Shown here piece by piece: positions 42,524 through 64,000 of a stretch of 64,000 bases of DNA (positions within the stretch are counted from its first letter, which is position 1; each line of letters opens with the position of its first letter). Position numbers and translations under genes: made by a program. The DNA comes from Fibrobacter succinogenes (GTDB taxonomy: Bacteria; Fibrobacterota; Fibrobacteria; Fibrobacterales; Fibrobacteraceae): assembly GCA_902762795.1 (NCBI GenBank), contig CACWPM010000016.1, positions 1 to 64,000 on the forward strand. Direction: 5' to 3'. Under the pieces are notes generated by a model. That model was not told the DNA's origin, did not search any database, and worked only from the letters and a program-made list of their open reading frames with translations.

Positions 42524-42582
42524 GGTTACCTTCTGTTTGTTTTTTCGCACCAATTTTAATTTATTGAGTTCTTCTTTTAAAG

Positions 42583-42603: not shown

Positions 42604-42702
42604 TTTTTGGATTGTTTCAAGTCTATTTGGAGTTGAGATGGTCTTTTGGGATTTCTAAAATGCGGTCGAACTTAAAAAGGTGTATAAAACTAGGAGTCCT
42701 GT

Positions 42703-43902: not shown

Positions 43903-43939
43903 GATTATGAGGCCTAACGGCTAAGCGAAAAAATCATGC

Positions 43940-43986
43940 GGGCGGGGCCCCAGCTCGGAGTTGCGAAGGCCGCACGGGCCCCTCCC
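43940..43986. repeat. GC-rich inverted repeat between lipoprotein and receptor genes
   Basis: GGGCGGGGCCC (43940-43950) faces GGGCCCCTCCC (43976-43986), ten of eleven positions pairing, with a 25-base loop. The surrounding 100 bases are far more GC-rich than the genes. It has no T tract, so it is not a standard terminator. Confidence 0.5.
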
Positions 43987-44041
43987 TGCACCCTCCCCAT
44001 CCTTGGCCGACGCTTTTTTCACTTTAGAAAATTTTTTGATA

Positions 44042-46305: not shown

Positions 46306-46527
46306 ATGTGTTTGTCTGAAATGAAAGAAAACCAAAAAGGTTTGATACAAAAGATTAATGGGGATTCTCGTTTTGTATCTCGGATTGTATCGATGGGGCT
46401 CCCGCCGAACAGTGCGTTTCTTGTGCTGCAAAATGACGGACGTTCACCTATTCTTGTGTACTCGCATGACACGATGATAGCTATTAATCGCAAGGAATGT
46501 AATCAGATTGATGTGGAGTTCGCATGA
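46306..46527 (+). CDS. feoA: FeoA family protein
   Basis: A 73-residue SH3-like protein: RFVSRIVSMGLPPNSAFLVL, then PILVYSHDTMIAINRKECNQ. FeoA binds the cytoplasmic part of FeoB and supports ferrous iron uptake. The start at 46306 is preferred because AAGGA lies seven bases upstream; an in-frame ATG at 46300 sits directly on that site. The stop overlaps the feoB start by four bases. Confidence 0.88.
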   Translation: MCLSEMKENQKGLIQKINGDSRFVSRIVSMGLPPNSAFLVLQNDGRSPILVYSHDTMIAINRKECNQIDVEFA

Positions 46528-48542
46528 GAACTATTGCTTTGCTTGGCCAACCGAATTCAGGGAAGTCAACGCTTTTTAATGCCTTGACGGGTTCTCATCA
46601 GCATGTGGGTAATTGGCCTGGAAAAACGGTTGAAAGGGCGGAAGGCTTTTTTACGTATGGCGAAGAACTGTATCGCGTTGTAGATTTGCCGGGGAGCTAT
46701 GGGCTTACGGCGAATTCTGCCGAAGAAATGGTGACGCGTACTTATATTGAGCATGGCTATGCTGACCTTGTATGCATTATTGTCGATGCAGCTCAACTTG
46801 AACGCAGCCTTTATATGCTTGCTGATTTTGTGGGTGTCAAAAGTCCGGTAATGCTTATTTTGAACATGATGGATGTCGCTGAGCATCATGGTAAAAAGAT
46901 CGATGTGGTAAAGCTTGAAAAACTGTTGAATATTCCAGTGCTCGGTTTTGTCGCTTCGGATACGGATGGTTATCTGCGTTTTTTTGAAACGATGGAACGG
47001 GCATTGAATACACATGCGATAATTTCTGTAGATAAGGCTCGCTCATTTGCAGAAACAAGTGAAAACTCCGTGGTATCCAGACTCGAAAATTATTTGTCCG
47101 GTCTGAAATTGGGTGTCCGTGAAAAATTCTGGATTGCATCGAAACTTTTAGAAAATGATTCCTTAGTTTGTTTTGAAATTCGAAATGCAGTTGATAGCGA
47201 GCGATGGCAAGAAATAAAGAAAGTCCTAGATGAAAAAGGTGTTGAAGGCGGTCTTTTGATGGGGGAGGCAAAGTATCGCTTTATTTCAGAGACTCTTCGT
47301 GAGGTGACAACGGAAACCCAACAGCAGGTGAAACTTTCCCGTTTCGATAAAATTGCAACGCACCGCATTTGGGGAAAATTTGTCGCGTTCTTTATTTTGG
47401 TGATTACGCTTGCTGTTAGCATGATGATAGCGGTTCCGATTATCGCAAGTTGCTTTGGGCTTCAAGGCGTTGCAGAACCGCTTGTTGTTAAAATGTGCGA
47501 ATCGTTTGGCTGGTGGCCTTCTGTCGCATCGTTTGTCAATAGCGTTTTTGTTGGCGGTCTTGCCGTGACTGTCGCCATGATGGGATTTGTCTTTGCTATT
47601 CTTGTGACGTTTGGCCTGATGGAAGATACGGGCTACTTGGCAAGATCTTCTTACGTGTTTGATTCGTGGCTTTCGCGGCTTGGATTGCATGGCAAGGCGT
47701 TTATGCCGTTGTTTTCAGGGCTTGCTTGTACGGGGGGCGCCGTGTGCGGGACGCGTGTACTTGATACGCGTGGACAGCGCTTGTTCGCGATGGTTCTTTT
47801 GTGGTCAATCCCGTGTGGCGCTAAAGTTTCTGTGGTGCTATTCCTTGCTTCTGTATTTTTTGGATCGATGGCGCCGCTTTTTGGTATTGTTTATGTGGCA
47901 ATGATTTTTGCGTCGTTCTGGTTATCGTCTAGACTTTTCGGAAACAAGCTGATGCCTGTGAGTGAACGCGTGGGCATGATTATGGAACTCCCGCCGTACC
48001 ACAAGCCGCATTGGAAGATTTTAATCAAGACTGTTGTTCGTAATGTTTGGGCTATTTTCAAGAAGGCGATTGTCGTGATTTGGGCTGTGTCCCTCTTGTT
48101 CTGGCTTGTTTCGTATTCGAAAGATGGCGTGGTGGAACATAGCGTTCTTTACACCATTGGAAATGCGATCGAACCGTTTACGCAAATTTTTGGCATGCGC
48201 TGGCAACTCTTCATCTCGTATTTGGGTGGAATTTTTAGCAAGGAAGCTTCGCTTGGCGTGATGAGTGTTGTCTTTGCCAGTACAAACGATGCTTTTTCAC
48301 TGATTTCCCGCAATGAAGCGGGCGCAAATCTTGGCGAAATGATGCGTGCTGCGGTTTCAATCCCGGAGGCGCTTGCGTTTATTTTTGCCTCGATGTTCAA
48401 TGTCCCTTGTGTGCTTACGATGGGTACGACGTATCGCGAAACGCATTCGTTCAAGTGGACTGCTGCAATCGCGGGGTATTACTTTGCGATTTCCTTGGGC
48501 CTTGCATTTGTCGTGTATCATATTGCACTTTGGGTGTTCTAA
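46524..48542 (+). CDS. feoB: Ferrous iron transport protein B
   Basis: A 672-residue protein. The N-terminal G domain has G1 GQPNSGKSTLFNAL, G3 DLPGSYGLTANS and G4 NMMD. A helical inhibitor region follows, then the membrane part with gate motifs FGLMEDTGYLARSSYVFD and FSGLACTGGAVCGTR and IPEALAFIFASMFNVPCVLT near the end. FeoB imports Fe(II) across the inner membrane in a GTP-dependent way. Its start overlaps feoA (ATGA). It lies in one run of genes with two TonB-dependent receptors, so ferrous and chelated iron uptake are probably co-regulated. No feoC is seen. Confidence 0.95.
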   Translation: MRTIALLGQPNSGKSTLFNALTGSHQHVGNWPGKTVERAEGFFTYGEELYRVVDLPGSYGLTANSAEEMVTRTYIEHGYADLVCIIVDAAQLERSLYMLADFVGVKSPVMLILNMMDVAEHHGKKIDVVKLEKLLNIPVLGFVASDTDGYLRFFETMERALNTHAIISVDKARSFAETSENSVVSRLENYLSGLKLGVREKFWIASKLLENDSLVCFEIRNAVDSERWQEIKKVLDEKGVEGGLLMGEAKYRFISETLREVTTETQQQVKLSRFDKIATHRIWGKFVAFFILVITLAVSMMIAVPIIASCFGLQGVAEPLVVKMCESFGWWPSVASFVNSVFVGGLAVTVAMMGFVFAILVTFGLMEDTGYLARSSYVFDSWLSRLGLHGKAFMPLFSGLACTGGAVCGTRVLDTRGQRLFAMVLLWSIPCGAKVSVVLFLASVFFGSMAPLFGIVYVAMIFASFWLSSRLFGNKLMPVSERVGMIMELPPYHKPHWKILIKTVVRNVWAIFKKAIVVIWAVSLLFWLVSYSKDGVVEHSVLYTIGNAIEPFTQIFGMRWQLFISYLGGIFSKEASLGVMSVVFASTNDAFSLISRNEAGANLGEMMRAAVSIPEALAFIFASMFNVPCVLTMGTTYRETHSFKWTAAIAGYYFAISLGLAFVVYHIALWVF

Positions 48543-48743: not shown

Positions 48744-50975
48744 ATGAAAAAGACTTTTGTTTTGATGGCACTTTTTTCGCTATGTGCGTTCGCACAAACG
48801 GAAGAGGTGACGAGTTATGATGAAGCGTTTTTTGACGAACCCGCAGTAGAGTCTAATGGCGCAGCGGCGACTGATATGTCGGTAAATTCTACAGAAATGT
48901 TGAACGGTTCCCGCGTTACTGAAAAATCCTCGGATATCACAGTTCTTGACGGTTTATCCGTCGAAGATGAAAGCGATGAGGAGACTGCCCCTATTGACAC
49001 GAAAACGAAAGCCGAATCGGTTAAGGTATTGGATACAAAGGAATTGCAAGGTTCCAGTGCCACAATTGCCGAAGCGACCAATCGATCTAGTGGTGTTAAA
49101 ATTAGACAATCGGGAGGTCTTGGCGGTGAAAGTAAAATCAACATCCGAGGCATGGAAGGTAAAAATGTAAAGGTTCTTGTTGATGGCATTCCTGTTGACA
49201 ACGGAAATGGAAATCTCTCGATAAATGATATTCCCATTGATAAAGTTGATCGTATCGAAGTTTACAAAAGCTATGTGCCGGAGCGCTTTGCTACAGACGG
49301 CATGGGTGGTGTTATTAATGTTGTGACTCGAAATCTGCCCAAAAGTTCAATTGCCGGCTCGTATTCTTTTGGCAGCTTCAATACGCATAAGGTCTCGTTG
49401 GACGCTAAGTATGTATGGGCTATCGATTCTCTGAAGAATCGTTCTGTTGAAACTGGAATTTCTGCTTACTACAATTACTCCGATAACGATTATGAGTTTA
49501 CGACTCCGTATATGGATACGACTGTGACACGTGAACATGACCGTTACTACAGCTACAATATTTCTCCGTTTGTGAATTTCAATAATTTTTGGTTTGACCG
49601 GATTTCGCTTGGAGCGGGATTCGGAAGTGTGGATAAAGAAATCCAATCGAACTTCCATAGAATTGAAGATGCTGTAATGGAAGGCTGGTCATACGGATTT
49701 ACGTTTGGCCTTGAAAAAAAAGATTTATTTGTTAAAGGCTTGAGCGGTTCTGTCTTGTTTGAGTTCTCGCACAATTTTGAAAATATAACGGATACGACGC
49801 ACATCTATTATACAGGTTGGTCTAGGGAAAGCTATCGCAGAAGTAAGGCTTTGGCAGGTGAAATTAAACAGGGTGGAGCCACTTTGTATGAACGCTATAA
49901 TAATTCATTCTTGATTCCGTGGAATTTCGATTATGCCTTTAATAAAAAACACATTTTGAGCTGGAGTGGCATTTATAGATACGATTCCCAAGAGCCTAAG
50001 GACAAACTTGCTGTAACGAAGCTCAGCACTTCTGGGTTCCCTGGACATAGTCATGGATTTATAACGGGATTATCTCTTGAAAATAATTTCCTTGATTCCA
50101 GATTACAAAATGTTGTTGGAATAAAGGGCTTTATCTATAAACTTGCGGCCGATGACGATGGCGCTAAGCTGCAACGCCTAGGCGGTGAAAATATAGACTT
50201 TGAAAATTTTGGCTATAGCGAAAATATCCGTTTTAAGGTAATTGAGCCTTTTGCCATTAAGGGAAGTTATCAGCATAGCCTAAGATTTCCGACGCATGAA
50301 GAGGTCTTTGGGGATGGACTGTATAGAGCTTCTTCGCCGAACTTAAATCCTGAAATATCGGATAACTTTACGGCTGGTGCGGAATTGGAATTGAATAACA
50401 TGCCCTTGCTTTTACGTCTGCATTTGGAATTCAACTGGTTCTATCTTTTGATGGATGATAGAATTTATTGGAGTAGCCTTGCTGCTGTGCCGCAACCTTA
50501 CAACAACAGTGTCGGAACGAAAACGCATGGTTTTGAAATTGAAGCTTCTGTTGATGTTAATGAGTATTTAGCGATTTCGTATAATGCTACGAATCAGGAT
50601 GTACGTAGTCGTGAAAAAGACTTGGTTTATGGCATTGATAAGGATTTAATCGTTCCGAACATACCGCTTTTTTACATGAATTTTGGCGCAGAATTCCATA
50701 TTGGAGATCTTCTGTTTAAAGATGACTTCTTTAAGTTGTATTGGACTGGTTGCTATACGGATGAGTATTATTACAACTGGAATGTTTCCAGAAAACAAAA
50801 AAGGATAATTCCTAGCTCATTCTTCCAAGATATTGGTGTGGAATACTCCGTCCTTGCAAATAAGTTTTCATGGAGCTTTGAAGTGAGAAACTTTACAGAT
50901 GCTCTCGTGTATGATAAGTATGGGGAATCAAAGGCTGGTCGTAGCTTTGCGTCTAAGATAAAGTTTAATCTTTAA
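48744..50975 (+). CDS. TonB-dependent outer-membrane receptor (paralog 2)
   Basis: A 743-residue paralog of the receptor at 44042. The signal peptide ends LCAFAQ. An acidic segment of ~85 residues follows, then the plug (ATIAEATNRSSGVKIRQSGG, KINIRGMEGKNVKVLVDGIP, IEVYKSYVPERFATDGMGG). The barrel ends GRSFASKIKFNL. The first part of the plug is nearly identical to paralog 1, while outer loops differ, which suggests ligands of different shape. It has its own leader of 130 bases after the feoB terminator, and AT-rich promoter-like sequence with GTTAACCTAGTC at 48618. The next gene follows after 29 bases. Confidence 0.9.
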   Translation: MKKTFVLMALFSLCAFAQTEEVTSYDEAFFDEPAVESNGAAATDMSVNSTEMLNGSRVTEKSSDITVLDGLSVEDESDEETAPIDTKTKAESVKVLDTKELQGSSATIAEATNRSSGVKIRQSGGLGGESKINIRGMEGKNVKVLVDGIPVDNGNGNLSINDIPIDKVDRIEVYKSYVPERFATDGMGGVINVVTRNLPKSSIAGSYSFGSFNTHKVSLDAKYVWAIDSLKNRSVETGISAYYNYSDNDYEFTTPYMDTTVTREHDRYYSYNISPFVNFNNFWFDRISLGAGFGSVDKEIQSNFHRIEDAVMEGWSYGFTFGLEKKDLFVKGLSGSVLFEFSHNFENITDTTHIYYTGWSRESYRRSKALAGEIKQGGATLYERYNNSFLIPWNFDYAFNKKHILSWSGIYRYDSQEPKDKLAVTKLSTSGFPGHSHGFITGLSLENNFLDSRLQNVVGIKGFIYKLAADDDGAKLQRLGGENIDFENFGYSENIRFKVIEPFAIKGSYQHSLRFPTHEEVFGDGLYRASSPNLNPEISDNFTAGAELELNNMPLLLRLHLEFNWFYLLMDDRIYWSSLAAVPQPYNNSVGTKTHGFEIEASVDVNEYLAISYNATNQDVRSREKDLVYGIDKDLIVPNIPLFYMNFGAEFHIGDLLFKDDFFKLYWTGCYTDEYYYNWNVSRKQKRIIPSSFFQDIGVEYSVLANKFSWSFEVRNFTDALVYDKYGESKAGRSFASKIKFNL

Positions 50976-51004: not shown

Positions 51005-52249
51005 ATGAACATGTTCAACAACAAATCTAAATCTTGCAATTTCGCAAGTATCGTAAAACAGTCTGCGCTTGCACTTGCTATGGCTAGTGCCCTTGTCGCT
51101 TGCGGCGATGATTCCTCTAGCGCTTCGGATGAACCCAATAACGAAGGCAAAAAATACGCCCTTGGCTTCATGATGGATAACTCCATGCTTGTAGGAACCG
51201 GAAGTTTTTCTGCAGACCAGAGTTCATTGGTGAAAGACTTTATTGAAACCAATAATTCTGCTTCTGTTGGTTATTTTAACGGATCCTTGTACATCTTAAA
51301 TGCCGATGAATCTGGAAACGGAAATCTTGCGCGCTATGAACTTGACAAGGATAATAATGTCCCTGAAAAGCCTGCTGCTACAGCGAAGTTTAAAGGCACA
51401 AGCGCAATGATGTTTAAATTCGTTGACAAAAAGAAAATGTATGTGAATCAGACCATGGGTAACGCTATTGTGTCTGTAGACCCGGTTACTTTGAAAAAAA
51501 TCAATACAATTGATTTTTCCAAGTACCTGGAAGAAGGCGCTTTAATGATAGCCCCGGGTTCTTCTGTTGTACGTGATGGTAAACTTTACCAGTCCTTGGG
51601 CCAGATTGTCTATATGAATGAGAATAGTATTATGACGGGTGGTTCTGCAATGGTCGCTATTATCGATATCGCAACGGATAAAATTGAAAAAGTTATTCGC
51701 GAAGATGCAACCTCATCGCTTGGTATCTATGATGACATGAATAACACCATGGCTTTTGTCGATGAAAATGGCGATATTTACTTCTATGCTCTTGGTTCGC
51801 TGGGCTTTGTTGAAGGACAAACAGAAGGTTGGGTGCGTATCAAGAAGGGTAAAACCGAATTTGACAAGGATTGGGTGTTCCACTTGCACGATGCCGCTTA
51901 CGATGGCAAGAAAAAGAATGAAAACTATCTTATGGCTGGTGGTACATACATTGGCGACGGAAAATTTATGGGTTTCTTCGGAAACTTCTCTGACCCAAAT
52001 AATTTCTATGCGCTTGAATGGAACTTTGTTGTCATTGATTTGAAGAAGAAGACCATTGAAAAGGTTGATTTGTCTCCGACGATTCCGTGGTTTGCAGCCT
52101 CTATCCATACAGATACAGATGGCTCTGTGTTCATTGGTCATTCCGATGGAAAGAAGGGCGCTATCTATCGTTACAGGGATGGTAAGGTCGAAAAGGAGAT
52201 GGACGTCTCCACCGGAACTGCTTACTATGTTGTTCCTCTTGAAGATTAA
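51005..52249 (+). CDS. Lipoprotein, beta-propeller-like, TonB-receptor partner (paralog 2)
   Basis: A 414-residue protein. A long N-terminal region leads to lipobox SALVACGDD (Cys ~35), then a Ser/Asp linker. Propeller-like repeats follow: SVGYFNGSLYILNADESG, FVDKKKMYVNQTMGNAIVSV, LKKINTIDFSKYLEEG, GWVRIKKGKTEFDKDW. It is clearly related to the 42703 protein but diverged. Gene order is mirrored: lipoprotein-receptor on the left, receptor-lipoprotein on the right of feoAB. AAGGA precedes the start. It converges with the NRPS gene across two hairpins. Confidence 0.75.
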   Translation: MNMFNNKSKSCNFASIVKQSALALAMASALVACGDDSSSASDEPNNEGKKYALGFMMDNSMLVGTGSFSADQSSLVKDFIETNNSASVGYFNGSLYILNADESGNGNLARYELDKDNNVPEKPAATAKFKGTSAMMFKFVDKKKMYVNQTMGNAIVSVDPVTLKKINTIDFSKYLEEGALMIAPGSSVVRDGKLYQSLGQIVYMNENSIMTGGSAMVAIIDIATDKIEKVIREDATSSLGIYDDMNNTMAFVDENGDIYFYALGSLGFVEGQTEGWVRIKKGKTEFDKDWVFHLHDAAYDGKKKNENYLMAGGTYIGDGKFMGFFGNFSDPNNFYALEWNFVVIDLKKKTIEKVDLSPTIPWFAASIHTDTDGSVFIGHSDGKKGAIYRYRDGKVEKEMDVSTGTAYYVVPLED

Positions 52250-52406: not shown

Positions 52407-55400
52407 CTAGATGAGGGTTACAAATTCCTTAATGCTTTTAGCTTGAAGAATTTGGTCGATGTTCACTGTTTTCTTGAGGTCAAGCGCAATTTTATCAACA
52501 AGTTTCATTAGGATGATAGAATCACCGCCTATGGAATAGAAATCATCGTCAAGCGTGATGCCCGGATTTTCGAAAACGCTTTGCCAGAGTTCAAGCATTG
52601 CTTTTTCATCATCGGAGATATTTTCGTTTGCTGTCGTGTTGGTTGTATTTTGTGCTGTTGTTGCGGTAGGCGTTTCTGGAATCGGGAGTTGCTTCTTGTC
52701 TACTTTTCCGTTTGCAGAAAGCGGGAAAGCTTCCATCGTGACGATTCTTGACGGAATCATGTAGCCTGTGAGGACTTTTGCAATTTCTGTTCTGAGTACG
52801 TTTTCTGCATTTTCGACGGTTGCTCCGATGACGTAAGCGATAATTTGCTTGCCGCTCCCTGGAACATCCTTGAGCGCTGCGACTGCTCGTGTGATGAGAC
52901 CCGTGTGCATCAGGGCCGCTTCGATTTCACCGAGTTCTATACGGAAACCATTGAGCTTGATTTGCGTATCGGAACGTCCGAGGAATTCGATGAAACCTTC
53001 GGTCTTGAGTTTGCCCAGATCTCCAGTGCGGTAGATGCGGCCCAGTTTCGGATGGTTGATGAACGCCTTGCTTGTCTTTTCGGGATCGTTATTGTAGCCT
53101 TTCGCAAGTCCCACGCCGCCAATGTAGAGGTCTCCCTGGACTTCTGGCGGGCAGAGCTTCAGATCTGCATTGAGCACATAGAATGTTTGGTTTTTCATTG
53201 GATAGCCGTAAGGCACGCAATCCCATTCCGGGTGCACATCGCTAAATGGGTAGATGATGGACCAAATGGCCGCCTCGGTGGCGCCGCCGAGACTGATAAG
53301 GTCTGCTTTGCAGTCTGCATTCTTTGATGTTGTGCAAATGTCAAGCGGAATGCGGTCGCCCGAAAGAAGGACCTTGCGGAGTGAGAGGCTGCTTGAATCA
53401 TTTGTCGAAATGCGGTGCTTCATCGCCATGTCGAAAAGCACGGGGACGGAATTCCAGACGGTCACATTCTGCGTACTGAGAACTTCGCAGACTTCGCTCA
53501 TGTCGCGTGCGTCGCTCACTAACGCGAGTTTTGCTCCACTGCTGAGTGCTCCGAAAATATCGTAGACGGATAGGTCGAAGCAGATAGAAGAGATTCCTAT
53601 GAGTGTGTCTGTTTCTTTAAGTGCGAGACGTTCGTTGACATCGATGATTGTATTTGCGGTCGCTCCGTGTTGCATGATGACGCCCTTGGGCTTGCCTGTA
53701 CTACCGGAGGTGTAGATGATGTAGGCTTCGTCTTTGGGCGTGTTGGTTGTCGGGAGTGGCTTGTCGCTGTAGCTTTGGATCTCCTTGGATTTGAGATAGG
53801 ATTTTTTCAGAAGGAATTTGCAATTACCATCTTGCATGATGAAGTCTACGCGTTCTTTGGGATACGAAATATCGATTGGAACGTAAACGCCGCCGGCCTT
53901 GAGAATGCCGAGAATGCTTGCGATTGTTTCTGGAATTCGTTCGCCGAGAACGGCAACGCGATCGCCACGGATGACTCCGTTTTCGTGGAGATAATTTGCA
54001 ATGCGGTTAGAGTATGCGTCTAGCTCTGCGTAAGTAAGGGATGAATCTTTGCCAACTATTGCAGTGCGATTCTTGAATAATTGCATTGCGTTATTGACGA
54101 GTCCATGCAGTGTCTTTACGGGGGCGGCTCCTACCTTAGGATTATAGGAGTTCCATATGACATTAATTTCTGGGAAACGGAGCGTGTTTTCGCCGTTTGC
54201 TATATACCTTATATTCTCAACGAAATCATTAAATATTTTATCAATAATTTCAGGTTCAAAAAGTTCTTTGACAACATCCCAAGTGACATAGAGCTTTTTG
54301 CCCATTTCTGCAATTTGGTTGTCGATGAAAATTTGCGGTGTCTGTGAAATGGAGTGGCGCAACTTGCCGAGAACCTCATAATAGTTTTCGGGGGCATCAA
54401 ATAATACGCAGGTAAATACTACGGGTAAAATTGCCTTGCCGAACTGGTTCCTGGATTTTGCGAGTTCGCGCATGATTTCTGTGCCGTCATATGACAAATG
54501 TTCCAGTCCGTCCATGATCCGTGTCTGGACATCGTTAGCTTGTTTCCACAAATCCTTTTCGTTCATCGAAAGTGCAAGTGGTAAAAGTTTGGTAAAGTCA
54601 CCGATAATTTTTTCGACATCTTTGTGGAAGGGCTTGCGTTCAAATGCCGTCAAGTTTAACACCATATCATGTTGATTGCTCCAACGTTCTAGCACTTTAG
54701 CGTAGATTGTACAAAGTAAAGACGATGGAGAAAGACGATGGGCTTTTGCAACCTCCTTGAATTTAGCCCATGTCTTTCTACAAATAACATCTTGCTTTCG
54801 CGTTATGGTGTATTCCGTGCAATCGGAAATTTTTTGTGCGAGAGGTACATGCGGATATTCTGGGAACGTCGGTAAACGTTCGAACCAATAGGCTTTATCT
54901 TCTTCGTAACGTTTTTCATCGCGAGAGTGCGATAAATCACGGATGTAGCGCTCGTAAGAGTATCCAATGCGTTCTTCGAATGGCTGCTTGCGCAGAATGC
55001 GTCCCAAGTCCGAGAAGAAAATTTGCATACTGTCACCATCGCAAACCATCAAGTCGAAACTCACGAAAATAATACGATGCGTGCTGCCGTAATCAACGGC
55101 CTTGAATGTGAATAGCGGCCACTTGTCATGCTTATAAATATGATGTGACAGTTCATTTCTGATTTTTAAAGCTTCTGTTTCCCGTTCTGCAGGTGTGCAG
55201 TTTACAACTTCCATTTTGTATTCAGGAACTTCGGCGAGAATCTTTTGCATACCGTTGGGGAGGAATATCGCTCTGAATGCATCGTGTTTTTTGACAACTT
55301 TGCGGATGGCATTTTCGATTTCTTCGATGGTGTATTGCGATTCTATTTCGAAGTAGTAATGCGCGTTGTATTTGCCAAGTTCAAAGTACTCGTTACGACC

Positions 55401-58400
55401 GTTCAAGTAGGCTAATTGTACGCCTGTCATCGGGAATTCAGCGCCTTTGCCCGATTCGCCCAAATCTGTGGTTGATGGCGATGCAATATCGTTTTTTGGA
55501 ACAATCATGTCTTCTACAGATTCGGCAAAATCCCTAGCGCTCTGTGCGTTCAAAACAGAGACGAATGGTACACGGATGCTGAATTTTTGATCAATACGTT
55601 GTGCGATACGCTGTGCCTTGATAGAATCGCCTCCGAGTTCAAAAAAGTCGAGGCTGCAATCGATTTCTTTGAGATCGAGAACCGATTTCCAGATGTCGAT
55701 AATCACGGATTGCGTTTCGGTGAGGACGACAGGGACTTTGACTTCAGCCGCATTTGCTGTGGTCACGGTGTTGGCGGAGAGATTCTGCATAAGCGTTTTG
55801 CGGTCGAGCTTTCCGTTGGATGATAGCGGCATTGCATCCAGATGAATGAACCTGTGCGGAATCATGTATGCGGGCAGGAATTGTGAAAGTTCGCTTTTGA
55901 ACCATTCTTTATCCTGCTGCATACCGGTATAGAAAGCGACAATTTGCTTGTTCGTATCTAGAATGACAATGGCGCTATCGACAGATGCGATAGCGTTCAT
56001 GCGTTGCTCGATTTCGCCGAGTTCAATGCGGTAGCCACCGACTTTGACTTGACTGTCCTTGCGACCGAGGAATACAACGTAACCGTTCGTCGAAAAACGC
56101 CCAAAATCGCCTGTCTTGTAAATGCGCCCGAATTTCGGATGTTCGATGAATGAATCCTTTGTCTTTTCTTCGCTGTTGGCATACCCTTGAGCCACACCCA
56201 CGCCGCCGATGTAGATTTCTCCCTGGACTTCGGGCGGGCAAATTTCAAGCGATTCGTTCATGACGTAAATTGTCTGGTTTGCAAGCGGGTATCCGTAAGG
56301 AATGCTTTGCCATGCCGGATTCACTTGCACAATCGGGAAGTAGATGGACCAAATGGATGCTTCTGTCGCTCCGCCCAAGCTGTAGATTTTTGCGTTTGGG
56401 AAATGCTTGCGGATGCGTCCCGGGAGCGAAACGGAAATCCAGTCGCCACTCAAAAGTACTGATTTGAGATTGCTGTTGATGTATGTTTCTTCGAGGCTGT
56501 CGATGAATAGTTCCATGCCTGCGGGGACAGAATTCCACAAGATGTTTTTGGAATTGTCCATGAAAGTACGGATTTCATCGGTTTCACGAATGTCCTTTGC
56601 AATGTCCAGTGTTGCTCCTGCCATAAGTGAACCGAATAGATCGTAGACGGAAAGATCGAAACAGTAAGATGAAAGTCCGAGGATTGTCGAATTTTCGTTG
56701 ATTCCCATGCGCTCGTTGATATCGATGATGGTGTTCATCATGGCTGCATACGAAATCAAGACTCCCTTTGGAGTGCCTGTGCTACCGGAAGTGTATATAA
56801 CATAAGCCGTTGCTTCGAGATTAGGGTTGGGCGTGAAATCTGCGCGTTCACGTGTCGGCGATTCTACAAGCTTTTGCGGTTCAACCAACAATTTGCAATT
56901 TGAATTTTTGACAATGTAATCCTTTCTGTCTTCGGGCCATTTTGCATCAACGGGAATGTAGGTGGCTCCAAGTCCCATTGTGGCTAGGATTGCGATGACT
57001 GTAGAGAAATTCTTTTGTGAGAGAATGGCTACGGAATCCCCGCAAGTGACATTTTGCATTTTGAGCATGAACATGGCCTTGCGTACGGAATCTTCAAGTT
57101 CGCCATATGTCATGCTGGTCATGACGCCATCTTGCAATGCCATGCGGTCGCGAAACTTGTTGAATGAACTCTGCAAATATGCAATGGGATGATCGATGTT
57201 GAATGCTTTTGCCGTGCTATTGTAAGCTTCAATTCTTTTTTCAAAATTAACGGTAGGATTTGTAAATGTTGCATTTGCAGCAAATTCTTCAATGGATTCA
57301 CTGTAAAATTTGAACATCTCGGAAATGAATCCTGTCGGGAAAATCTTTTCAAGATAATCCCACGAAATCATGAGTCCGCCATCGTACGTTTTGCAAATTT
57401 GATTGTCAATGCTGACTTGTGAAGTTTGTGTTTGTACGTAATGAACTTGTAAATCCTGCGGTTTTGGAAGTTTTCCAAAAAGCATACTCGTAAAGACAAT
57501 CGGCATCGGGTTTTCTTTGTCGATTTGCTTTTGACGGATAAGGTCACGGATGACTTCGACGCCTTCGTAGGAGCTGTGGTCTATGCGCTCATACATACGG
57601 TCTCGAATTTTTTGGAGCGTCTCGCGGATGTTTAAACCTTTAAGCATTTTTGATGAAAAATCAAAAATGACATTGCTTGTGTAATCGCCAATAATATGGT
57701 CCATGCCTTCAATACCGTAGGGGCGATTGAGCATGGTGATGTTGACGGAAAAGTCGCCATTTTCGCTAAATCTTGCAAGCGTTTTTAGATATAGGTAGAA
57801 AAGAACAACGCTAGATGTGACTCCGTTTTTGCGAGCTGCAATTTCCATTTTGTGGAGTGTCTCTTTGCTGAATATCCTTTGTACGCGATTACAAATGTTC
57901 GCTTCGTTATCGCGGGATGATATGACTGGAAACTTGGGTGCCGCTGGAATATCGGATTCTAGTTTATGCCAAAATTCTGCATCGCCATCGTGTTTTGTAG
58001 AGTCTTTGCGGTTCTTTATCCAGTCAACATATTGCGGATTATTTTCGAAATCAAAGGAGGGTAAAATGCCATCGTGGTAGAGAGATAAGAATTCTGCGGC
58101 AAGCCCTTGTGCGCTCAAACCATCGACAAACATGAGTTCTAAATCGATGGTTGCGATATTGCGTTTTTCTGTAGCGATGTTTGTAATGTCGAATAAAGGC
58201 CACTTTCCGAGATCGCGTATTTCGGTCTGTGCGTACAAACGTTTTTGTTCAAGATGTTGTTGAATATTCGCTTCGGAAATGGTCTCTCGTGAAATCCTGA
58301 AATTCTTGCTAATATCTTTTGTGAAAATACACTGTTCTTCATCATTTACGAATGCACGAAGGGCTTCGTGCTTTTCAATTAATTTGCAGATGCATTTTTC

Positions 58401-58769
58401 TGCCTTGTCAACGTCTAGAGCGTGCTCTACTTCAAAATAAATATGGGTAGAGTTTACAGAACCATGGAAATTCTGTTCACGCCCTAGACGATAAGACTGC
58501 TGCATTGGCGTCAAGGGTATTTTTTTTTCGACTTCGGCTCCTTTGCCGAGTTTTTCCTGAATCTTGTTAACCAGGTCGCCTATTGTCTCTGCCTTGACCA
58601 AATCGAGCATCCCGAATTCTATGCTGAGTTTATTCTTGACTTCTCCAAGGAATCGGAACATCTGGATAGAGTCTTCAAAAACTTCGTAGAGGGATGTTTC
58701 TGCTTGAACGTTTTGCTTGAGAATTTGATTGACTGTTTCGAGAATTTCTTTTTGCGAAAATTGCGACAT
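52407..58769 (-). CDS. Non-ribosomal peptide synthetase, ACP-Cy-A(Cys)-PCP-Cy-A(Cys)-PCP
   Basis: A 2120-residue protein. An N-terminal carrier domain (~1-75, FEDSIQM) comes first. Cy1 (~80-510) has LELMFVDGLS and Cy2 (~1115-1500) has DLMVCDGDS, the DxxxxDxxS pattern of heterocyclization domains (first Asp is Glu in Cy1). A1 (~520-1010) has VIYTSGSTGTPKG and A2 (~1560-2030) IIYTSGSTGKPKG. Both read FDLSVYD, WNSVP, VLLSGD, SLGGATEA-IW, giving code DLYNLSLIW, the known cysteine code. Carriers are ELGGDSI (~1046) and SIGGDSI (~2080). It should join and cyclise two Cys to thiazolines. No methyltransferase, epimerase or reductase is embedded, and there is no terminal release domain. AAGGAG lies before the start. 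Confidence 0.9.
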   Translation of the reverse strand: MSQFSQKEILETVNQILKQNVQAETSLYEVFEDSIQMFRFLGEVKNKLSIEFGMLDLVKAETIGDLVNKIQEKLGKGAEVEKKIPLTPMQQSYRLGREQNFHGSVNSTHIYFEVEHALDVDKAEKCICKLIEKHEALRAFVNDEEQCIFTKDISKNFRISRETISEANIQQHLEQKRLYAQTEIRDLGKWPLFDITNIATEKRNIATIDLELMFVDGLSAQGLAAEFLSLYHDGILPSFDFENNPQYVDWIKNRKDSTKHDGDAEFWHKLESDIPAAPKFPVISSRDNEANICNRVQRIFSKETLHKMEIAARKNGVTSSVVLFYLYLKTLARFSENGDFSVNITMLNRPYGIEGMDHIIGDYTSNVIFDFSSKMLKGLNIRETLQKIRDRMYERIDHSSYEGVEVIRDLIRQKQIDKENPMPIVFTSMLFGKLPKPQDLQVHYVQTQTSQVSIDNQICKTYDGGLMISWDYLEKIFPTGFISEMFKFYSESIEEFAANATFTNPTVNFEKRIEAYNSTAKAFNIDHPIAYLQSSFNKFRDRMALQDGVMTSMTYGELEDSVRKAMFMLKMQNVTCGDSVAILSQKNFSTVIAILATMGLGATYIPVDAKWPEDRKDYIVKNSNCKLLVEPQKLVESPTRERADFTPNPNLEATAYVIYTSGSTGTPKGVLISYAAMMNTIIDINERMGINENSTILGLSSYCFDLSVYDLFGSLMAGATLDIAKDIRETDEIRTFMDNSKNILWNSVPAGMELFIDSLEETYINSNLKSVLLSGDWISVSLPGRIRKHFPNAKIYSLGGATEASIWSIYFPIVQVNPAWQSIPYGYPLANQTIYVMNESLEICPPEVQGEIYIGGVGVAQGYANSEEKTKDSFIEHPKFGRIYKTGDFGRFSTNGYVVFLGRKDSQVKVGGYRIELGEIEQRMNAIASVDSAIVILDTNKQIVAFYTGMQQDKEWFKSELSQFLPAYMIPHRFIHLDAMPLSSNGKLDRKTLMQNLSANTVTTANAAEVKVPVVLTETQSVIIDIWKSVLDLKEIDCSLDFFELGGDSIKAQRIAQRIDQKFSIRVPFVSVLNAQSARDFAESVEDMIVPKNDIASPSTTDLGESGKGAEFPMTGVQLAYLNGRNEYFELGKYNAHYYFEIESQYTIEEIENAIRKVVKKHDAFRAIFLPNGMQKILAEVPEYKMEVVNCTPAERETEALKIRNELSHHIYKHDKWPLFTFKAVDYGSTHRIIFVSFDLMVCDGDSMQIFFSDLGRILRKQPFEERIGYSYERYIRDLSHSRDEKRYEEDKAYWFERLPTFPEYPHVPLAQKISDCTEYTITRKQDVICRKTWAKFKEVAKAHRLSPSSLLCTIYAKVLERWSNQHDMVLNLTAFERKPFHKDVEKIIGDFTKLLPLALSMNEKDLWKQANDVQTRIMDGLEHLSYDGTEIMRELAKSRNQFGKAILPVVFTCVLFDAPENYYEVLGKLRHSISQTPQIFIDNQIAEMGKKLYVTWDVVKELFEPEIIDKIFNDFVENIRYIANGENTLRFPEINVIWNSYNPKVGAAPVKTLHGLVNNAMQLFKNRTAIVGKDSSLTYAELDAYSNRIANYLHENGVIRGDRVAVLGERIPETIASILGILKAGGVYVPIDISYPKERVDFIMQDGNCKFLLKKSYLKSKEIQSYSDKPLPTTNTPKDEAYIIYTSGSTGKPKGVIMQHGATANTIIDVNERLALKETDTLIGISSICFDLSVYDIFGALSSGAKLALVSDARDMSEVCEVLSTQNVTVWNSVPVLFDMAMKHRISTNDSSSLSLRKVLLSGDRIPLDICTTSKNADCKADLISLGGATEAAIWSIIYPFSDVHPEWDCVPYGYPMKNQTFYVLNADLKLCPPEVQGDLYIGGVGLAKGYNNDPEKTSKAFINHPKLGRIYRTGDLGKLKTEGFIEFLGRSDTQIKLNGFRIELGEIEAALMHTGLITRAVAALKDVPGSGKQIIAYVIGATVENAENVLRTEIAKVLTGYMIPSRIVTMEAFPLSANGKVDKKQLPIPETPTATTAQNTTNTTANENISDDEKAMLELWQSVFENPGITLDDDFYSIGGDSIILMKLVDKIALDLKKTVNIDQILQAKSIKEFVTLI

Positions 58770-58778
58770 GGAATCTCC

Positions 58779-60395
58779 TTAGATTTTGCCTTCTTTGTAG
58801 GCTGCGTACAGTTTTTCTTTGGCGATTTTTCCGGTACCCGTAAGAACCAACGATTTGAGAGGAATGACTTCTTTGAGGCCGAAACCCATTTCGGAGAATA
58901 CAAAATCTTTGAGTGAATTTACATTCACTTTTTCGGGTTCACCGTATTCAACGAATAGATAAATGTGATTAGTGGAAGCTGCGGAATCGTTGACTCCACA
59001 AGCTGCGCAGCGGTAACCGAATTTTGAAGTGACGACTTGTTCGATGTCGCGCAAGTAAATGTTTTTGCCGTGGATAAAGAACATGTCTTTTTTGCGACCC
59101 ACAACGTACAAAAGTCCATTGCTCAAAAAGCCGAGATCGCCCGTGTCGAGCCATCCGTCAACAAACATATCCGAAGAATCTTTGTTCAAGTATCCTGTGC
59201 AAATGTAATCGCTAAACACTTGGATGCTACCGACCGTGTTGTCGGGGAGAATTCGGTTTTCCTCGTCGCAGATGCGAATTTGCATTTCGGGAATCGGACG
59301 ACCTTGACACACAATGTCCTCTGCATTTTCACGAAGTCCCTTCATGTCAAAATCAATACCGGATGTTACTTTATTGATATCCAGCTCTGGATATTCGTGG
59401 TCCATATTGAATGTTACGGCCCCCAATGCTTCGGTAAGGCCGTAAAGCGGAACAATGGCGTGTTCATGCATTCCGAATTCGGCCATCTTAGTTACGAATT
59501 CATTAAAGATTTTTTTGGAGAGGGGTTCACCACCATTCAGAATAAAATCGATGCAGGATAGATCCCAATTCTCGCTGCCGTCCAAGGCTTTTAAAAGGAG
59601 CGGGTAGGCAAAATTCGGGGCGGATGTTTTTGTGGCACGCGTCTTGCTGACGGCATCGAACCAAGATTTTGGATTTTGAATGAATTCTGCGGCATCCATG
59701 TGAACGGCGCCCGTTTTGTAGTACATCGGGATTGTGATGAGTGTGACAACGCCGAAGGCGTGCTCCAGCGGGAGCCACTGCAACCAAGTATCCTTTGAAC
59801 TTGTCTTTAATGCTATATTCAAATTCTTGAGCATCAGGAGGAATCTTTCGTTTGTCATCATGACTCCCTTCGGATCGGAAGTACTGCCAGATGAGTAGAG
59901 AACGAGTGCAAGCGCTTTTGGGTCTACATCGACGTATTCGATTTCGGAAGGCAAATCTTGCGGGTATTCCGTGATCTCTTCGGGAACAACTATCAAACGG
60001 TTAGGATCGCATTCTTGCCAGAAAAACTTGATGAATTCTGCCGTTTCGGTGTCTGCGATGATGGCTGCTTTGGGATTGGCTTTTGCTACGCGAATTAAAC
60101 GGGTTACATGATCCTTGCTGCGTGCGGCTGTCAATAAAACGGGGGCAATTCCCATGCTCAGCAATGCATAGAAATTTCCCATGAAGGCTTTTTTTGACGC
60201 TCCGTTAATCTGGAAAATAACCATATCTCCTTGCTTTAACCCTGCATTCTCAAAAGCATGACGTGCGCAAAGAATGCGCATTTTGAGTTCCGCTTTTGAA
60301 AAGTTTGTTGCAACTCCATTTTTCATTAGAACAATCCGGGAATCACATTCAAGATATTCTTTCAATTTTTGGTTAAGCGAGGGCAAGTTTTGCAT
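58779..60395 (-). CDS. Acyl/aryl-AMP ligase, probable starter-loading enzyme
   Basis: A 538-residue ANL-superfamily enzyme. The core motifs are LVLYSSGSTSDPKGVMMTN (P-loop), LPLEHAFGVVTL, YGLTEALGAVTF and the hinge GWLDTGDLGFL, and the catalytic Lys is in GTGKIAKEKL. It adenylates a carboxylic acid and can pass it to a carrier protein; the natural partner is the N-terminal ACP of the NRPS 9 bases downstream. The closest style is fatty-acyl/AMP ligase rather than salicylate ligase, so the starter acid is uncertain. Its start overlaps the PPTase end by 23 bases, with AGGAG upstream. Loss should abolish the first loading step (inference). Confidence 0.82.
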   Translation of the reverse strand: MQNLPSLNQKLKEYLECDSRIVLMKNGVATNFSKAELKMRILCARHAFENAGLKQGDMVIFQINGASKKAFMGNFYALLSMGIAPVLLTAARSKDHVTRLIRVAKANPKAAIIADTETAEFIKFFWQECDPNRLIVVPEEITEYPQDLPSEIEYVDVDPKALALVLYSSGSTSDPKGVMMTNERFLLMLKNLNIALKTSSKDTWLQWLPLEHAFGVVTLITIPMYYKTGAVHMDAAEFIQNPKSWFDAVSKTRATKTSAPNFAYPLLLKALDGSENWDLSCIDFILNGGEPLSKKIFNEFVTKMAEFGMHEHAIVPLYGLTEALGAVTFNMDHEYPELDINKVTSGIDFDMKGLRENAEDIVCQGRPIPEMQIRICDEENRILPDNTVGSIQVFSDYICTGYLNKDSSDMFVDGWLDTGDLGFLSNGLLYVVGRKKDMFFIHGKNIYLRDIEQVVTSKFGYRCAACGVNDSAASTNHIYLFVEYGEPEKVNVNSLKDFVFSEMGFGLKEVIPLKSLVLTGTGKIAKEKLYAAYKEGKI

Positions 60396-61050
60396 TGTGG
60401 GGTTCTCCTATTAAAAAATCAAAGAGGTCAATTTTGGTGAGGTATTTGACGGGTAGGGTTTCGGAACAGTATGCCGTGATTACAGATTTTTCGCAGTCAA
60501 TGACTTGCATTTTTGCAAATCTGTAATCAAATGAGCTTTCATTGTAATCTGAAAAATTGATGGTGGAAAGATTTTCATCAATTCCCGTTCCAATGAATTT
60601 TAGATAACTTTCTTTCATGGACCAAAAGCGTGCGAATGTGCGCGCTTTGTCTTGTGAGTTGTTTATTGCTTTTTGCTCGCTAGGATGCATTGCGCTTTTG
60701 ATACAATCTAAATTACGTGAATCTACATCGGCGATATCGACGCCTATAGGTGAATTGGCAAGTCCGCATGCAATTCCCATGGTTGAGTGGGATAAACTAA
60801 ATTGTAATTCTGGCATGCCTTTGATAAACGGCTTTCCGTATGGCCCGAATTCAAATTCAACTTTTTCGTCTAAGCCTTTTTCTTCGATTAACGCGTATCG
60901 CAAAAGGATGTAGGCGAGTGCGGAAAGCTTGCGGTCTTTGAAATAACGGTACTTGTCAACGCGTTTTGCACGTTGATCGCTCAGTAATGGCCATAGGCCT
61001 GCCAAGTCGAGCTCTGTAAAAGTTTCTGTTTCTGTGAAAATATAAAGCAC
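60373..61050 (-). CDS. Sfp-type 4'-phosphopantetheinyl transferase
   Basis: A 225-residue PPTase. It has FGPYGKPFIKGMPELQFSLS, then SHSTMGIACGLA, GVDIADVDSR (Mg-binding Asp) and FARFWSMKESYLKFIGTGI (catalytic Glu/Lys). Such enzymes activate carrier domains by attaching the CoA phosphopantetheine arm. Its place in the operon points to the NRPS carriers as substrates. It starts with GTG at 61050, directly after the stop of the cyclization-domain gene (TAAGTG), so it is translationally coupled. Confidence 0.93.
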   Translation of the reverse strand: MLYIFTETETFTELDLAGLWPLLSDQRAKRVDKYRYFKDRKLSALAYILLRYALIEEKGLDEKVEFEFGPYGKPFIKGMPELQFSLSHSTMGIACGLANSPIGVDIADVDSRNLDCIKSAMHPSEQKAINNSQDKARTFARFWSMKESYLKFIGTGIDENLSTINFSDYNESSFDYRFAKMQVIDCEKSVITAYCSETLPVKYLTKIDLFDFLIGEPHNAKLALA

Positions 61051-62505
61051 TTACAAAACCTCGTCCCATTTTTCGGTGAGCAATCGTTTGAGCAAATTCA
61101 CGTTTGCGGCGAACATCTGCTTTAACGTTTCCAGCGTGAATGCGGGTTCTGCATAATCCCAATTGATGGAAAGCCTTCCGTCAAAATTTGTGACTTGATA
61201 ATCCAATACGACTTGGGGAGTTTTGCTCAATGCGTAAATTTGTTGCAATCCTTGGGGCAAGTCGCTATTGGACTTTTGTCCGTTTTCAAGCACGCAAGTG
61301 ATGACAATCGGCATTTGTGCGCGCATGGGCGAAAGACCTTCCTTGAATTTGAGAATCTTTGTGCCATCGTAAGTGTGGAAACGTACAAGTTGCCACATGT
61401 CTTTTTGTACGGACTGCACGCATTCCAAAAAGTTCTTGCATTTTTTTGAAAGTGTGATGAATGCGATGTTGGTGAAATCGCCGACGACCGAATTGATGTC
61501 TTTATGGAGCGGCAAGCGGTTGAACAATGTGGAATTGATGGTGAGCGAATCGCACTTGCTGAAACCAAGGAGCGCCTTGAGATAAGCGGTGCTGATGACG
61601 GCGGCTGGCGTCGTGCGGTATTCGCGGCATTTTTGCTGGAATAGAGCAAATTCATCGACCGTCAGTTCTCCAGAAATTCTTGAAAAACGATGGTTGTGAA
61701 TTTCTGAAAGCGGTTTTGCATATGGCAAATCCGGCTCACAAACGAGCTCGTTTACTTTCGATTTCCAAAATGCTTCGGCTTGCGAGTAATCTTGTTGCTT
61801 TTCGAACGCAATCAAGTCGTTGCAATAATCCTTGAAAGTGTAATTGACCCATTGCACGGTTTCGTTGCGGTAGAGTTTGAACATCTGCGAAAGCGCGATT
61901 TTTGCACTCCAGGCATCCATAATCATGCAGTCGAAATCGAAATGCAGAACGTCTTTTGTGTTTGGCACGCGTGAAATGCGCATCGTAAAGAACGGCCACT
62001 GATTCAAGGGATAAATGTGGTGGCTCCATTCCTTGCGCTTTTCGAGACGTTCTTCGATGGATTTTAATTCGACAACTTCAATGGAATACGTTGGAGCGGA
62101 TTCGAGAACGCGCTGTGTTCCTTTGGTTGAAATTACAAGGCGAAGCGCATCGTCGTGAGCGATAACTTCGTTCCATGCGTTTTGCAACCGTACTACATCA
62201 AGCGTTTCGTCAAGTTCAACTTCCAAATAGTAATGCGTGTTGATCCCACCAAGATCGTAAACAGGATTGCGACCGACAAGGTATGATTTTTGGATAGGCG
62301 AGAGCGGGAAAGAATTTTGTTCTTCTTCCGCTAGCTTTTCGAGATGCGTGATGATTCCGGCCTTGTTTGCCTTTAAACATTCCTTGTCTTCGCTAGAAAG
62401 TGCTCCGTTTGCAGCGCGGAATTTTAGCTTACCCTCTTCGAGCCAAAGCGTTACGCCGCGCTGTGCGAAACTTTCAATGAGTTCCTTTGCGGTTAGAGAA
62501 TCCAT
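61051..62505 (-). CDS. Stand-alone NRPS heterocyclization (Cy) domain with TubC-type docking domain
   Basis: A 484-residue protein. The first ~55 residues (MDSLTAKELIESFAQRGVTL, then WLEEGKLKFRA) are a TubC_N-like docking domain. The rest is one condensation-family domain: FPLSPIQKSYLVGR, HYYLEVEL, and FDCMIMDAWS (DxxxxDxxS, heterocyclization type), then VVGDFTNI and VLDYQVTN. No adenylation or carrier domain follows. It must act in trans with the A-PCP protein upstream or the large synthetase. Its start overlaps the preceding stop by one base (TAATG). A third Cy domain suggests a third Cys/Ser/Thr is cyclised or that Cy1 acts as a plain condensation domain. Confidence 0.85.
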   Translation of the reverse strand: MDSLTAKELIESFAQRGVTLWLEEGKLKFRAANGALSSEDKECLKANKAGIITHLEKLAEEEQNSFPLSPIQKSYLVGRNPVYDLGGINTHYYLEVELDETLDVVRLQNAWNEVIAHDDALRLVISTKGTQRVLESAPTYSIEVVELKSIEERLEKRKEWSHHIYPLNQWPFFTMRISRVPNTKDVLHFDFDCMIMDAWSAKIALSQMFKLYRNETVQWVNYTFKDYCNDLIAFEKQQDYSQAEAFWKSKVNELVCEPDLPYAKPLSEIHNHRFSRISGELTVDEFALFQQKCREYRTTPAAVISTAYLKALLGFSKCDSLTINSTLFNRLPLHKDINSVVGDFTNIAFITLSKKCKNFLECVQSVQKDMWQLVRFHTYDGTKILKFKEGLSPMRAQMPIVITCVLENGQKSNSDLPQGLQQIYALSKTPQVVLDYQVTNFDGRLSINWDYAEPAFTLETLKQMFAANVNLLKRLLTEKWDEVL

Positions 62506-64000
62506 TAGTTGTTCTCCTGCAAATTTTTCAAGGAAAGTTTTTCGGCAAGTTCCGGCGCAAATTCCTTTGATGTGAATGCGGTGAAATGGTCGCCTTTGAG
62601 TTGCTCGTATTTAATTTCGCCAATGCAAAGATCATCCCATTTTTGGAACAGCATCTTGTCTGCGTTCTTGAAAATGCTGTTGCTGTTATCTGCCTTGAAA
62701 TAGCGCAAATCGCCGAAGTACGGAGTCGGATTGTAATTGATCATGACGTTGAAATTTTGATCGAACGTTTTCTTGATTCGAGCAAAGGCTTCGTCGGTCA
62801 TGCTGTTGCCAAAATCGCCGGAGTATTCCTTGATTTTTTGGAATCGTTCGCTTGTGGATAGTGCGTTGAAATTCTGGATGGCGTCTGCATCAGGCGATTG
62901 ACCGATAATTTTTTCGAAATCATTTTCGTCAATGATTTTTTTCTTCGTTTCTTCGATATAGCTGTTCATCAAGAATGTAATGTCTTCGAACTTGAAGCCA
63001 ACCTTTTCGGGATTAACGCCAATCAATGTGGCAAAGAAGAAATCCTTAATGTTTGTCTGCTTGATTTCAAAAGGCAAGCGTGCGCCTTCGATGATGGCGA
63101 GGTCTGCAATTTCGATTTCGGCGTTTTCGAGACGTTCTGCAAGTTCCAAAGAAAGTTTTCCGTTGAAACTGTAGCCGATAATCTGTACTTTCTTGATGCC
63201 TGCTTCTATAATTTTGTCTGCAAATTCCTTGGCCAAGACGCTTGCGACTTCAGCCTCGCCAATTTCAAAGAAGTATTGCGTGTTCGAAAGCTTGAATGTG
63301 AAAATTTCGCCTTCGTCCTGACTTTCCATGAGCGGAATTATTTCATGGAACATTTCATCATTCCAAAGAACGGTCGGGAGGAGAACTCTCGCGCAATCGT
63401 CCTTAGGCTTGCCATGACGTTTGAGTTGAATGAATTCTCCCGAATTTTCTGTTACTTCTTCGGTTTCATTTTTCAGGAAACGCGCAACGTCCGTGACAGT
63501 CGGAAAATCGAGCATCTGCTTCAATATGGCATCGAATGTCTTGTCCGAAGCGAGTTCGTTGCGGATGGTCGTTGCCATTTGCGCCATGAGCAAGGAGTCT
63601 GCGCCAAAATCATAGAAGTTATCGTCTTTCCCGATGGAGTCGATATTCAAAGCCTTAATGGCGATTTCGATAAGGCGATTTTCGATGGATTGGTCTTTAC
63701 CCTGTGATGCTTCGAATGCGTCTGCGAAATGCTTGAGCGCATACTGGTCAACATTTCCGTTTGCGGCTAAAGGCAACTTGTCGAGGATATGGATGGACGT
63801 GTTCTTTTCGGGACAGATATCATTCAGAACCAGCTTTACAGAAGATTCGGAAACTTCATCCTTGTCGTACTTGAATTGTTTGACATAAAGATATCCGCCC
63901 AGCATTTTTGCCTTTGCTTCGTCTTGCGGGAATGTCGTTGCGTTTGCAAGGCCGTCTTTTTGACGCAACAATTCAATCCAATCTTCTTTAGGCAAGAACA
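62505..64000 (-). CDS. NRPS C-terminal part: A-domain end, PCP, thioesterase (5' end outside the window)
   Basis: Open to the right edge; only the last ~498 residues are seen. The adenylation C-terminal subdomain has LPLAANGNVDQYAL with the usual Gly-Asn but Asn-Val-Asp where most have Gly-Lys-(V/I)-(D/N). PCP follows (DNFYDFGADSLLMAQ, ~145). Then comes a thioesterase-like alpha/beta hydrolase (IIGYSFNGKLSLELAERLEN, nucleophile Ser in GYSFNG; His in GDHFTAF near the end). It is the likely release unit of the assembly line. No lysine is seen in the ANGxV motif where the A10 Lys is expected, so this A domain may be inactive (inference). Confidence 0.8.
   Translation of the reverse strand, partial: FLPKEDWIELLRQKDGLANATTFPQDEAKAKMLGGYLYVKQFKYDKDEVSESSVKLVLNDICPEKNTSIHILDKLPLAANGNVDQYALKHFADAFEASQGKDQSIENRLIEIAIKALNIDSIGKDDNFYDFGADSLLMAQMATTIRNELASDKTFDAILKQMLDFPTVTDVARFLKNETEEVTENSGEFIQLKRHGKPKDDCARVLLPTVLWNDEMFHEIIPLMESQDEGEIFTFKLSNTQYFFEIGEAEVASVLAKEFADKIIEAGIKKVQIIGYSFNGKLSLELAERLENAEIEIADLAIIEGARLPFEIKQTNIKDFFFATLIGVNPEKVGFKFEDITFLMNSYIEETKKKIIDENDFEKIIGQSPDADAIQNFNALSTSERFQKIKEYSGDFGNSMTDEAFARIKKTFDQNFNVMINYNPTPYFGDLRYFKADNSNSIFKNADKMLFQKWDDLCIGEIKYEQLKGDHFTAFTSKEFAPELAEKLSLKNLQENN

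Follow-up and report, generated by a model that had tools for sequence, protein, structure and literature searches.

Pyochelin is built by a line (PchD/E/F/G/C) that combines a salicyl-AMP ligase, PchD, with cysteine-type adenylation (A) domains, an A-epimerase-peptidyl carrier protein (PCP) arrangement in PchE, a heterocyclization (Cy)-A-methyltransferase (MT)-PCP-thioesterase (TE) end, a thiazolinyl imide reductase, and a type II TE. The gene cluster described here, from a 64,000-nucleotide stretch of Fibrobacter succinogenes DNA (assembly GCA_902762795.1, contig CACWPM010000016.1, or C16, positions 1-64000; hereafter the window) and the sequence that follows it, shares these parts except for the ligase. 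Its nonribosomal peptide synthetase (NRPS) P0001 is preceded in the operon by P0002, a ligase of the fatty acyl-AMP ligase (FAAL) type in place of PchD. In further contrast to pyochelin, the cluster has no salicylate synthase, and it has two extra Cy-A-PCP modules, a third Cy domain (Cy3) on a separate TubC-Cy protein, and a tandem MT. The cluster is a variant of the pyochelin/yersiniabactin kind, and judging from its sequence, it probably directs the synthesis of an acyl-primed, all-cysteine heterocyclic metallophore, presumably a siderophore; the window holds its downstream part.

Other described systems share some of these features. Equibactin (Streptococcus equi eqbA-N) and the Clostridium kluyveri cluster CKL_1504-1511 also have a yersiniabactin-like Cy line, a thiazoline reductase, the saccharopine-dehydrogenase-like EqbM, and no salicylate synthase (PMC3672683). 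However, theirs is a salicylate-type ligase (EqbD), one A domain serves three PCPs, and the Ser of the terminal TE is replaced by Ala. Micacocidin and massiliachelin are FAAL-primed thiazoline siderophores (PMC6604713), but their FAAL feeds a type I polyketide synthase that makes an alkyl-salicylate, whereas in Fibrobacter there is no polyketide synthase and Cy directly follows the carrier. Cyanochelin B, a siderophore, likewise combines a FAAL with an acyl-thiazoline and a C-MT (PMC12628792), but its single thiazoline is followed by a beta-OH-Asp peptide. We found no description of a Fibrobacter siderophore in the literature. Thiazoline metallophores whose chelators come solely from the core NRPS are stated to fall outside chelator-based antiSMASH rules (PMC12971057), and clusters of this kind are therefore missed.

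Cysteine codes and the number of rings

Domain searches of the 2120-aa P0001 found three carrier, two condensation, and two AMP-binding stretches, in the order acyl carrier protein (ACP)-Cy1-A1(Cys)-PCP1-Cy2-A2(Cys)-PCP2. The N-terminal carrier noted in the preliminary description is a PF00550 match at residues ~1-76. Pocket positions 235/236/239/278/299/301/322/330/331 were read on a GrsA fragment verified as identical to 1AMU residues 234-523, and both A domains gave DLYNLSLIW, the cysteine code that had been reported for them. This code is kept in both A domains of the P0001 counterparts (six of six related genomes checked). The likeness first drawn to pyochelin and yersiniabactin synthetases is exact for PchF, whose published code, like those of BacA and BlmIV, is identical over positions 235-330, and near for PchE (DLFNLSLI, one position off) and HMWP2 (DLYNMSMI, two positions off) (PMC3672683 Table 1).

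The operon runs past the right edge of the window, up to ~C16:78559, and there encodes two further Cys-type A domains, DLYNMSLIW and DLYNFSLIW. The codes follow the cysteine pocket pattern DLYN(L/M)S(L/M)(I/V), with the qualification that the F at 299 of DLYNFSLIW is absent from the published list. The order of transcription is the ABC pair, the type II TE, a 909-aa protein, an oxidoreductase, the thiazolinyl imide reductase, the terminal module, TubC-Cy3, a phosphopantetheinyl transferase (PPTase), the ligase, and P0001. In total, the cluster has one ligase, one ACP, four Cy, four Cys-type A, four PCP, and one TE. A line balanced in this way is most simply read as making a four-cysteine product, and we infer such a product together with the pairing of the free Cy3 with the 909-aa protein. 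The bis-thiazoline proposed from the window alone is too short, because the window cuts the cluster (two more Cys-type A and one more Cy lie past its edge, besides the stand-alone Cy3); four Cys-derived rings are expected.

The starter ligase and its substrate

The best hidden Markov models for P0002 were those of FAALs, every one under its curated cut-off (PRK07768, 245.9 with a cut-off of 572; PRK09192, 226.6 with a cut-off of 600). Among PDB sequences, McyG and an A domain that selects keto acids ranked first (4e-55), ahead of FAALs (1e-41). A FAAL-type insertion, a motif that has been described (PMC4667280), was sought between motif A5 and the next subdomain in an alignment of P0002 with 25 relatives. 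P0002 has one of ~25-30 residues after GLTEALGAVTFN, which the aligned Fibrobacterota CoA ligases lack. A structure model built from the 26 sequences had a pLDDT of 87.9 (an earlier three-sequence model, pLDDT 44.9, was discarded). The McyG A-PCP structure was closest to it (Z 44.0; 509 residues at 3.2 A), followed by the keto-acid A domain and by FAALs (Z 41-42). Siderophore aryl-acid AMP ligases were not among the best 50 structural matches, which excludes nothing by itself.

It is very improbable that the product is a phenolate siderophore, with the ligase taking salicylate or dihydroxybenzoate (DHB) from the environment, as equibactin assembly would for salicylate. The remainder of the cluster is pyochelin-like, and equibactin, made by a strain that lacks a salicylate synthase, nevertheless requires salicylate (PMC3672683), so an absent synthase alone does not exclude this substrate. 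The preliminary description had raised the prospect of an aryl-acid gene just beyond the right edge. No salicylate or isochorismate synthase was found there or in the rest of the assembly (3.93 Mb, 96.7% complete), and the two PF00425 chorismate-binding enzymes of the genome best fit TrpE and a PabB fused to a lyase (PabB-PabC type). The family and code of the ligase are stronger evidence against salicylate than the missing synthase. While the listed salicylate and DHB ligases all have N, F/Y, and Q at 235/236/299 (PMC3672683), the aryl-acid code (N235, F/Y236, Q299, G301) is replaced by A, F, L, and G in P0002 and by V, F, L, and G in the ligase of G004, a related genome considered below. Moreover, the matches of P0002 to a salicylate-AMP ligase (1.7e-16) and PchD (2e-12) are far behind those to the FAAL/McyG group.

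The suggestion that the ligase is more fatty-acyl- than salicylate-type is therefore borne out by the best-matching models and structures and by the absence of the aryl-acid code. On the same grounds, the starter is most likely an acid that is neither an amino acid nor salicylate or DHB. An alkyl starter is likely from sequence and model, but the acid may instead be branched or an arylpropanoid, because the closest solved relatives are the McyG A-PCP and the keto-acid A domain, with FAALs after them. McyG uses phenylpropanoids, and branched volatile fatty acids and phenylpropanoic acid are abundant in the rumen. We weighed a starter that is aromatic without being salicylate (of the phenylacetate, 3-phenylpropanoate, or cinnamate type), which would be loaded as in McyG and give an arylalkyl tetra-thiazoline. 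McyG being the top structural and a near-top sequence match speaks for it, as do the supply of phenylpropanoic acids in rumen fluid and a 3-deoxy-D-arabino-heptulosonate 7-phosphate (DAHP) synthase gene that adjoins a Lacrimispora relative of the FAAL-ACP-Cy-A line. However, FAALs are close behind in Z score, McyG itself is in a FAAL-like clade, and the Fibrobacter cluster has no aromatic-acid biosynthesis gene, which leaves an aromatic starter unlikely, if deserving of attention, beside an aliphatic one.

Distribution and exchange of the ligase and carrier

The ligase, and with it the cluster, is present in eight of 80 Fibrobacter genomes and in one genome of another genus of Fibrobacteraceae; locus L034 is of the same type, and the named records are Fibrobacter metagenome-assembled genomes. 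Between two of the genomes, G001 and G004, the operon is 87-100% identical in DNA except over the segment that begins with the ligase and closes with the ACP, which is ~50-77% identical. At the protein level, the ligases are 59% and the ACP regions 77% identical, with most of the rest at ~91-99%. The swapped segment of G004 covers ~1.8 kb and comprises the ligase (L026:11916-13535, that is, G004:C4:99916-101535) together with ~80 codons at the 5' end of the G004 NRPS gene. Since ligase and ACP diverge together while their flanks are kept, they move as one cassette, which is independent evidence of functional pairing. This supports the view that the two would work together and gives a hint that G004 may use a different starter. 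G001 and G004 also have in common a terminal module without MTs and reductases that have diverged (relative to the window, 40% identity for PCP-TE and 67% and 52% for the reductases), and their terminal TE has Cys (TYCYIS; G001:C2:117073-121341 and G004:C4:103643-107911) as opposed to Ser (GYSFNG) in the window. A 3028-aa NRPS in another Fibrobacter genome (G007:C34:16648-22071) has A codes unlike those for Cys and belongs to an unrelated product.

Similar arrangements occur in Lacrimispora (L035-L038), where an NRPS of the form FAAL-ACP-Cy-A-PCP-Cy-A-PCP-reductase has Cys codes, two Cys-type modules, and a terminal reductase, and on the Levilactobacillus brevis plasmid pKB290-3 (L090), which encodes a PPTase, a SagB/ThcOx dehydrogenase, ACP-Cy-A(Cys)-PCP with the code DLFNLSLIW, a TE, and a FAAL-like ligase. 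The product of the plasmid cluster would be a 2-substituted thiazole. Given that both pair a FAAL-like ligase (26-29% identity) with ACP-Cy-A(Cys), the principle is not unique to Fibrobacter. They differ from the Fibrobacter cluster in having two and one Cys units, with reductive release and oxidation, respectively, and no thiazolinyl reductase or TonB genes in the stretches read. Besides the DAHP synthase gene, nitroreductase and methyltransferase genes adjoin the Lacrimispora line.

The end of the line, its surroundings and the predicted product

None of the four Cy domains contains HHxxxDG in a motif check. Cy2 and Cy3 carry DxxxxDxxS, Cy1 and Cy4 carry ExxxxDxxS, conserved in relatives, and the Thr of the PVVFT motif and the Asp of the QTPQxxxD motif are present in all four. 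The thiazolinyl imide reductase exceeds the TIGR01761 cut-off (241.8 bits against 188.8) and matches YbtU (4gmf) at 6e-37. The insert of the 909-aa protein was at first read as a methyltransferase, but it aligns with the MT-like domain of PchE (8e-8) and motif I is degenerate in both (LNARSGLG; LDTRAGLW in PchE), which favors an epimerase instead. The PchE domain acts as an epimerase in pyochelin (PMC6604713), so a D-configured ring is predicted. Both terminal-module inserts still carry GAGTG motifs. The second reductase is labeled PchK/EqbM-like by position and annotation only; its best PDB match is at 0.083 and no Pfam model reaches its cut-off. From these sequence features (epimerase-like insert, thiazolinyl imide reductase, MTs, and TE), a pyochelin-like end is predicted.

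The terminal module is a single open reading frame in eight of nine genomes and is split only in that of the window (contig C16 67930-68243; L002:5930-6243), where a single base in an A homopolymer at about contig position 68,170 breaks the frame. A natural two-gene module was rejected on this basis, and the frameshift may be an assembly error, slippage, or phase variation. The 909-aa protein and the second reductase have in common an acidic C-terminal tail (IEEGEI and EIEGEI; L002:9552-9590 and 8476-8515) in all eight genomes checked, and the codons for it overlap the next gene's ribosome-binding site. Synonymous changes in the tail of the 909-aa protein argue for some selection on the peptide, whereas the reductase tail shows no variation in its GGAGAA. 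The tail may serve to dock the two TubC domains, or it may result from that ribosome-binding site.

The surroundings of the operon (Table 1) make metal uptake its likeliest role. Operon, TonB-dependent receptor, and lipoprotein are syntenic in related genomes, and TonB and ExbB genes are located on the operon's other side. Separately, window positions 39005-46294 hold a second TonB receptor, lipoprotein, and ABC pair by FeoB, in a layout paralogous to the set beside the NRPS operon.

Table 1. Features of the NRPS operon and its neighbors, in coordinates of contig C16 (identical to window positions up to 64000)
Feature	Position	Strand	Basis or remark
Pair of ABC exporter-fold transporters (neighbor)	39005..42356	-	Second such pair heads operon at contig 75048-78559
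Second TonB-dependent receptor (neighbor; link presumed)	43961..46294	+	PF00593, PF07715
FeoB ferrous iron transporter (neighbor; link presumed)	46524..48542	+	TIGR00437 375.6 bits, cut-off 315.65
TonB-dependent receptor, conserved beside operon	48744..50975	+	PF07715 1.4e-17
Lipoprotein-like protein, convergent with NRPS operon, conserved beside it	51005..52249	+	No Pfam match
P0001, NRPS ACP-Cy1-A1-PCP1-Cy2-A2-PCP2	52407..58769	-	Domain search, pocket code
PCP2 of P0001	52419..52622	-	Domain search
A2 of P0001, code DLYNLSLIW (Cys)	52680..54152	-	GrsA numbering
Cy2 of P0001, DLMVCDGDS, no HHxxxDG	54195..55454	-	Motif
PCP1 of P0001	55521..55706	-	PF00550, residues 1022-1083
A1 of P0001, code DLYNLSLIW (Cys)	55770..57242	-	GrsA numbering
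Cy1 of P0001, ELMFVDGLS (Glu for first Asp; conserved in relatives), with catalytic-type Thr and Asp	57270..58529	-	Motif
N-terminal acyl carrier domain of P0001, residues 1-76	58542..58769	-	PF00550
P0002, FAAL/McyG-type acyl-AMP ligase, 538 aa, proposed ACP loader	58779..60395	-	HMMs, PDB sequence and structure matches
4'-Phosphopantetheinyl transferase, AusB-like	60373..61050	-	PF01648 7e-14
Stand-alone TubC_N docking domain and Cy3 (DCMIMDAWS)	61051..62505	-	PF18563, PF00668
Terminal module, 3' part in window (second MT, PCP, TE with GYSFNG)	62505..64000	-	Whole gene C16 62505-69396, frameshift-split
Terminal module A-MT-MT-PCP-TE	62505-68243		Entered by frameshift from TubC_N-Cy at 67930-69396
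TubC_N-Cy part (Cy4) of terminal module	67930-69396		
Thiazolinyl imide reductase	69398-70471		TIGR01761
NAD(P)-binding oxidoreductase (second reductase)	70476-71555		
909-aa A-insert-PCP protein, insert PchE-epimerase-like	71552-74281		
Type II thioesterase	74288-75040		
ABC pair heading operon	76766-78559 and 75048-76766		

An acyl polythiazoline that serves as an antibiotic or signal and is exported by the ABC pair would be a different use of the same chemistry. The logic of four heterocycles resembles that of mirabazole and thiangazole, a phenolate chelator is lacking, and the starter is swapped between strains, as expected of diversifying bioactives but equally of siderophores under receptor piracy. 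We regard this role as quite unlikely given the conserved TonB receptor and lipoprotein beside the operon, TonB/ExbB on the opposite side, FeoB nearby, and the YbtU-type reductase.

For the acyl-primed metallophore, the following pathway is proposed. The PPTase would arm the carriers, and the FAAL-type ligase would activate a carboxylic acid that is not an amino acid and is most likely aliphatic, and would load it onto the N-terminal ACP of P0001. Cy1/A1/PCP1 and then Cy2/A2/PCP2 would each add and cyclize one Cys, after which the stand-alone TubC-Cy3 and the A-(PchE-like epimerase)-PCP protein would add a third ring, predicted to be D-configured. The predicted product is an acyl-(Cys)4 thiazoline/thiazolidine acid whose end resembles that of pyochelin, and which the ABC, TonB/ExbB, and TonB-receptor genes would transport.

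Several points weigh against this proposal. P0002, being under every curated FAAL cut-off, is FAAL-like but outside the curated subfamilies, and the solved structure that fits it best belongs to a loader of phenylpropanoids. In Cy1 and Cy4 the DxxxxDxxS motif starts with Glu instead of Asp, and both Asp of that motif were reported to be essential in HMWP2 Cy1 (PMC3672683). A frameshift interrupts the terminal module in the assembly studied here, and the module order and trans action of Cy3 are deduced. Finally, the predicted molecule, having no phenolate, would be a weaker Fe(III) binder than pyochelin.

A broader proposal, which we advance tentatively as having a little less than an even chance, is that these clusters define a phenolate-free class of metallophores in strict rumen anaerobes. 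In this class, an aliphatic acid would be carried through four consecutive Cys heterocycles, and the ligase-plus-carrier cassette, exchanged between species, would yield versions of one chelator that differ in their cap. If true, an acyl-(Cys)4 chelator without a phenolate would widen the pyochelin family, and the exchange of ligase and ACP amounts to a natural starter-swap experiment.

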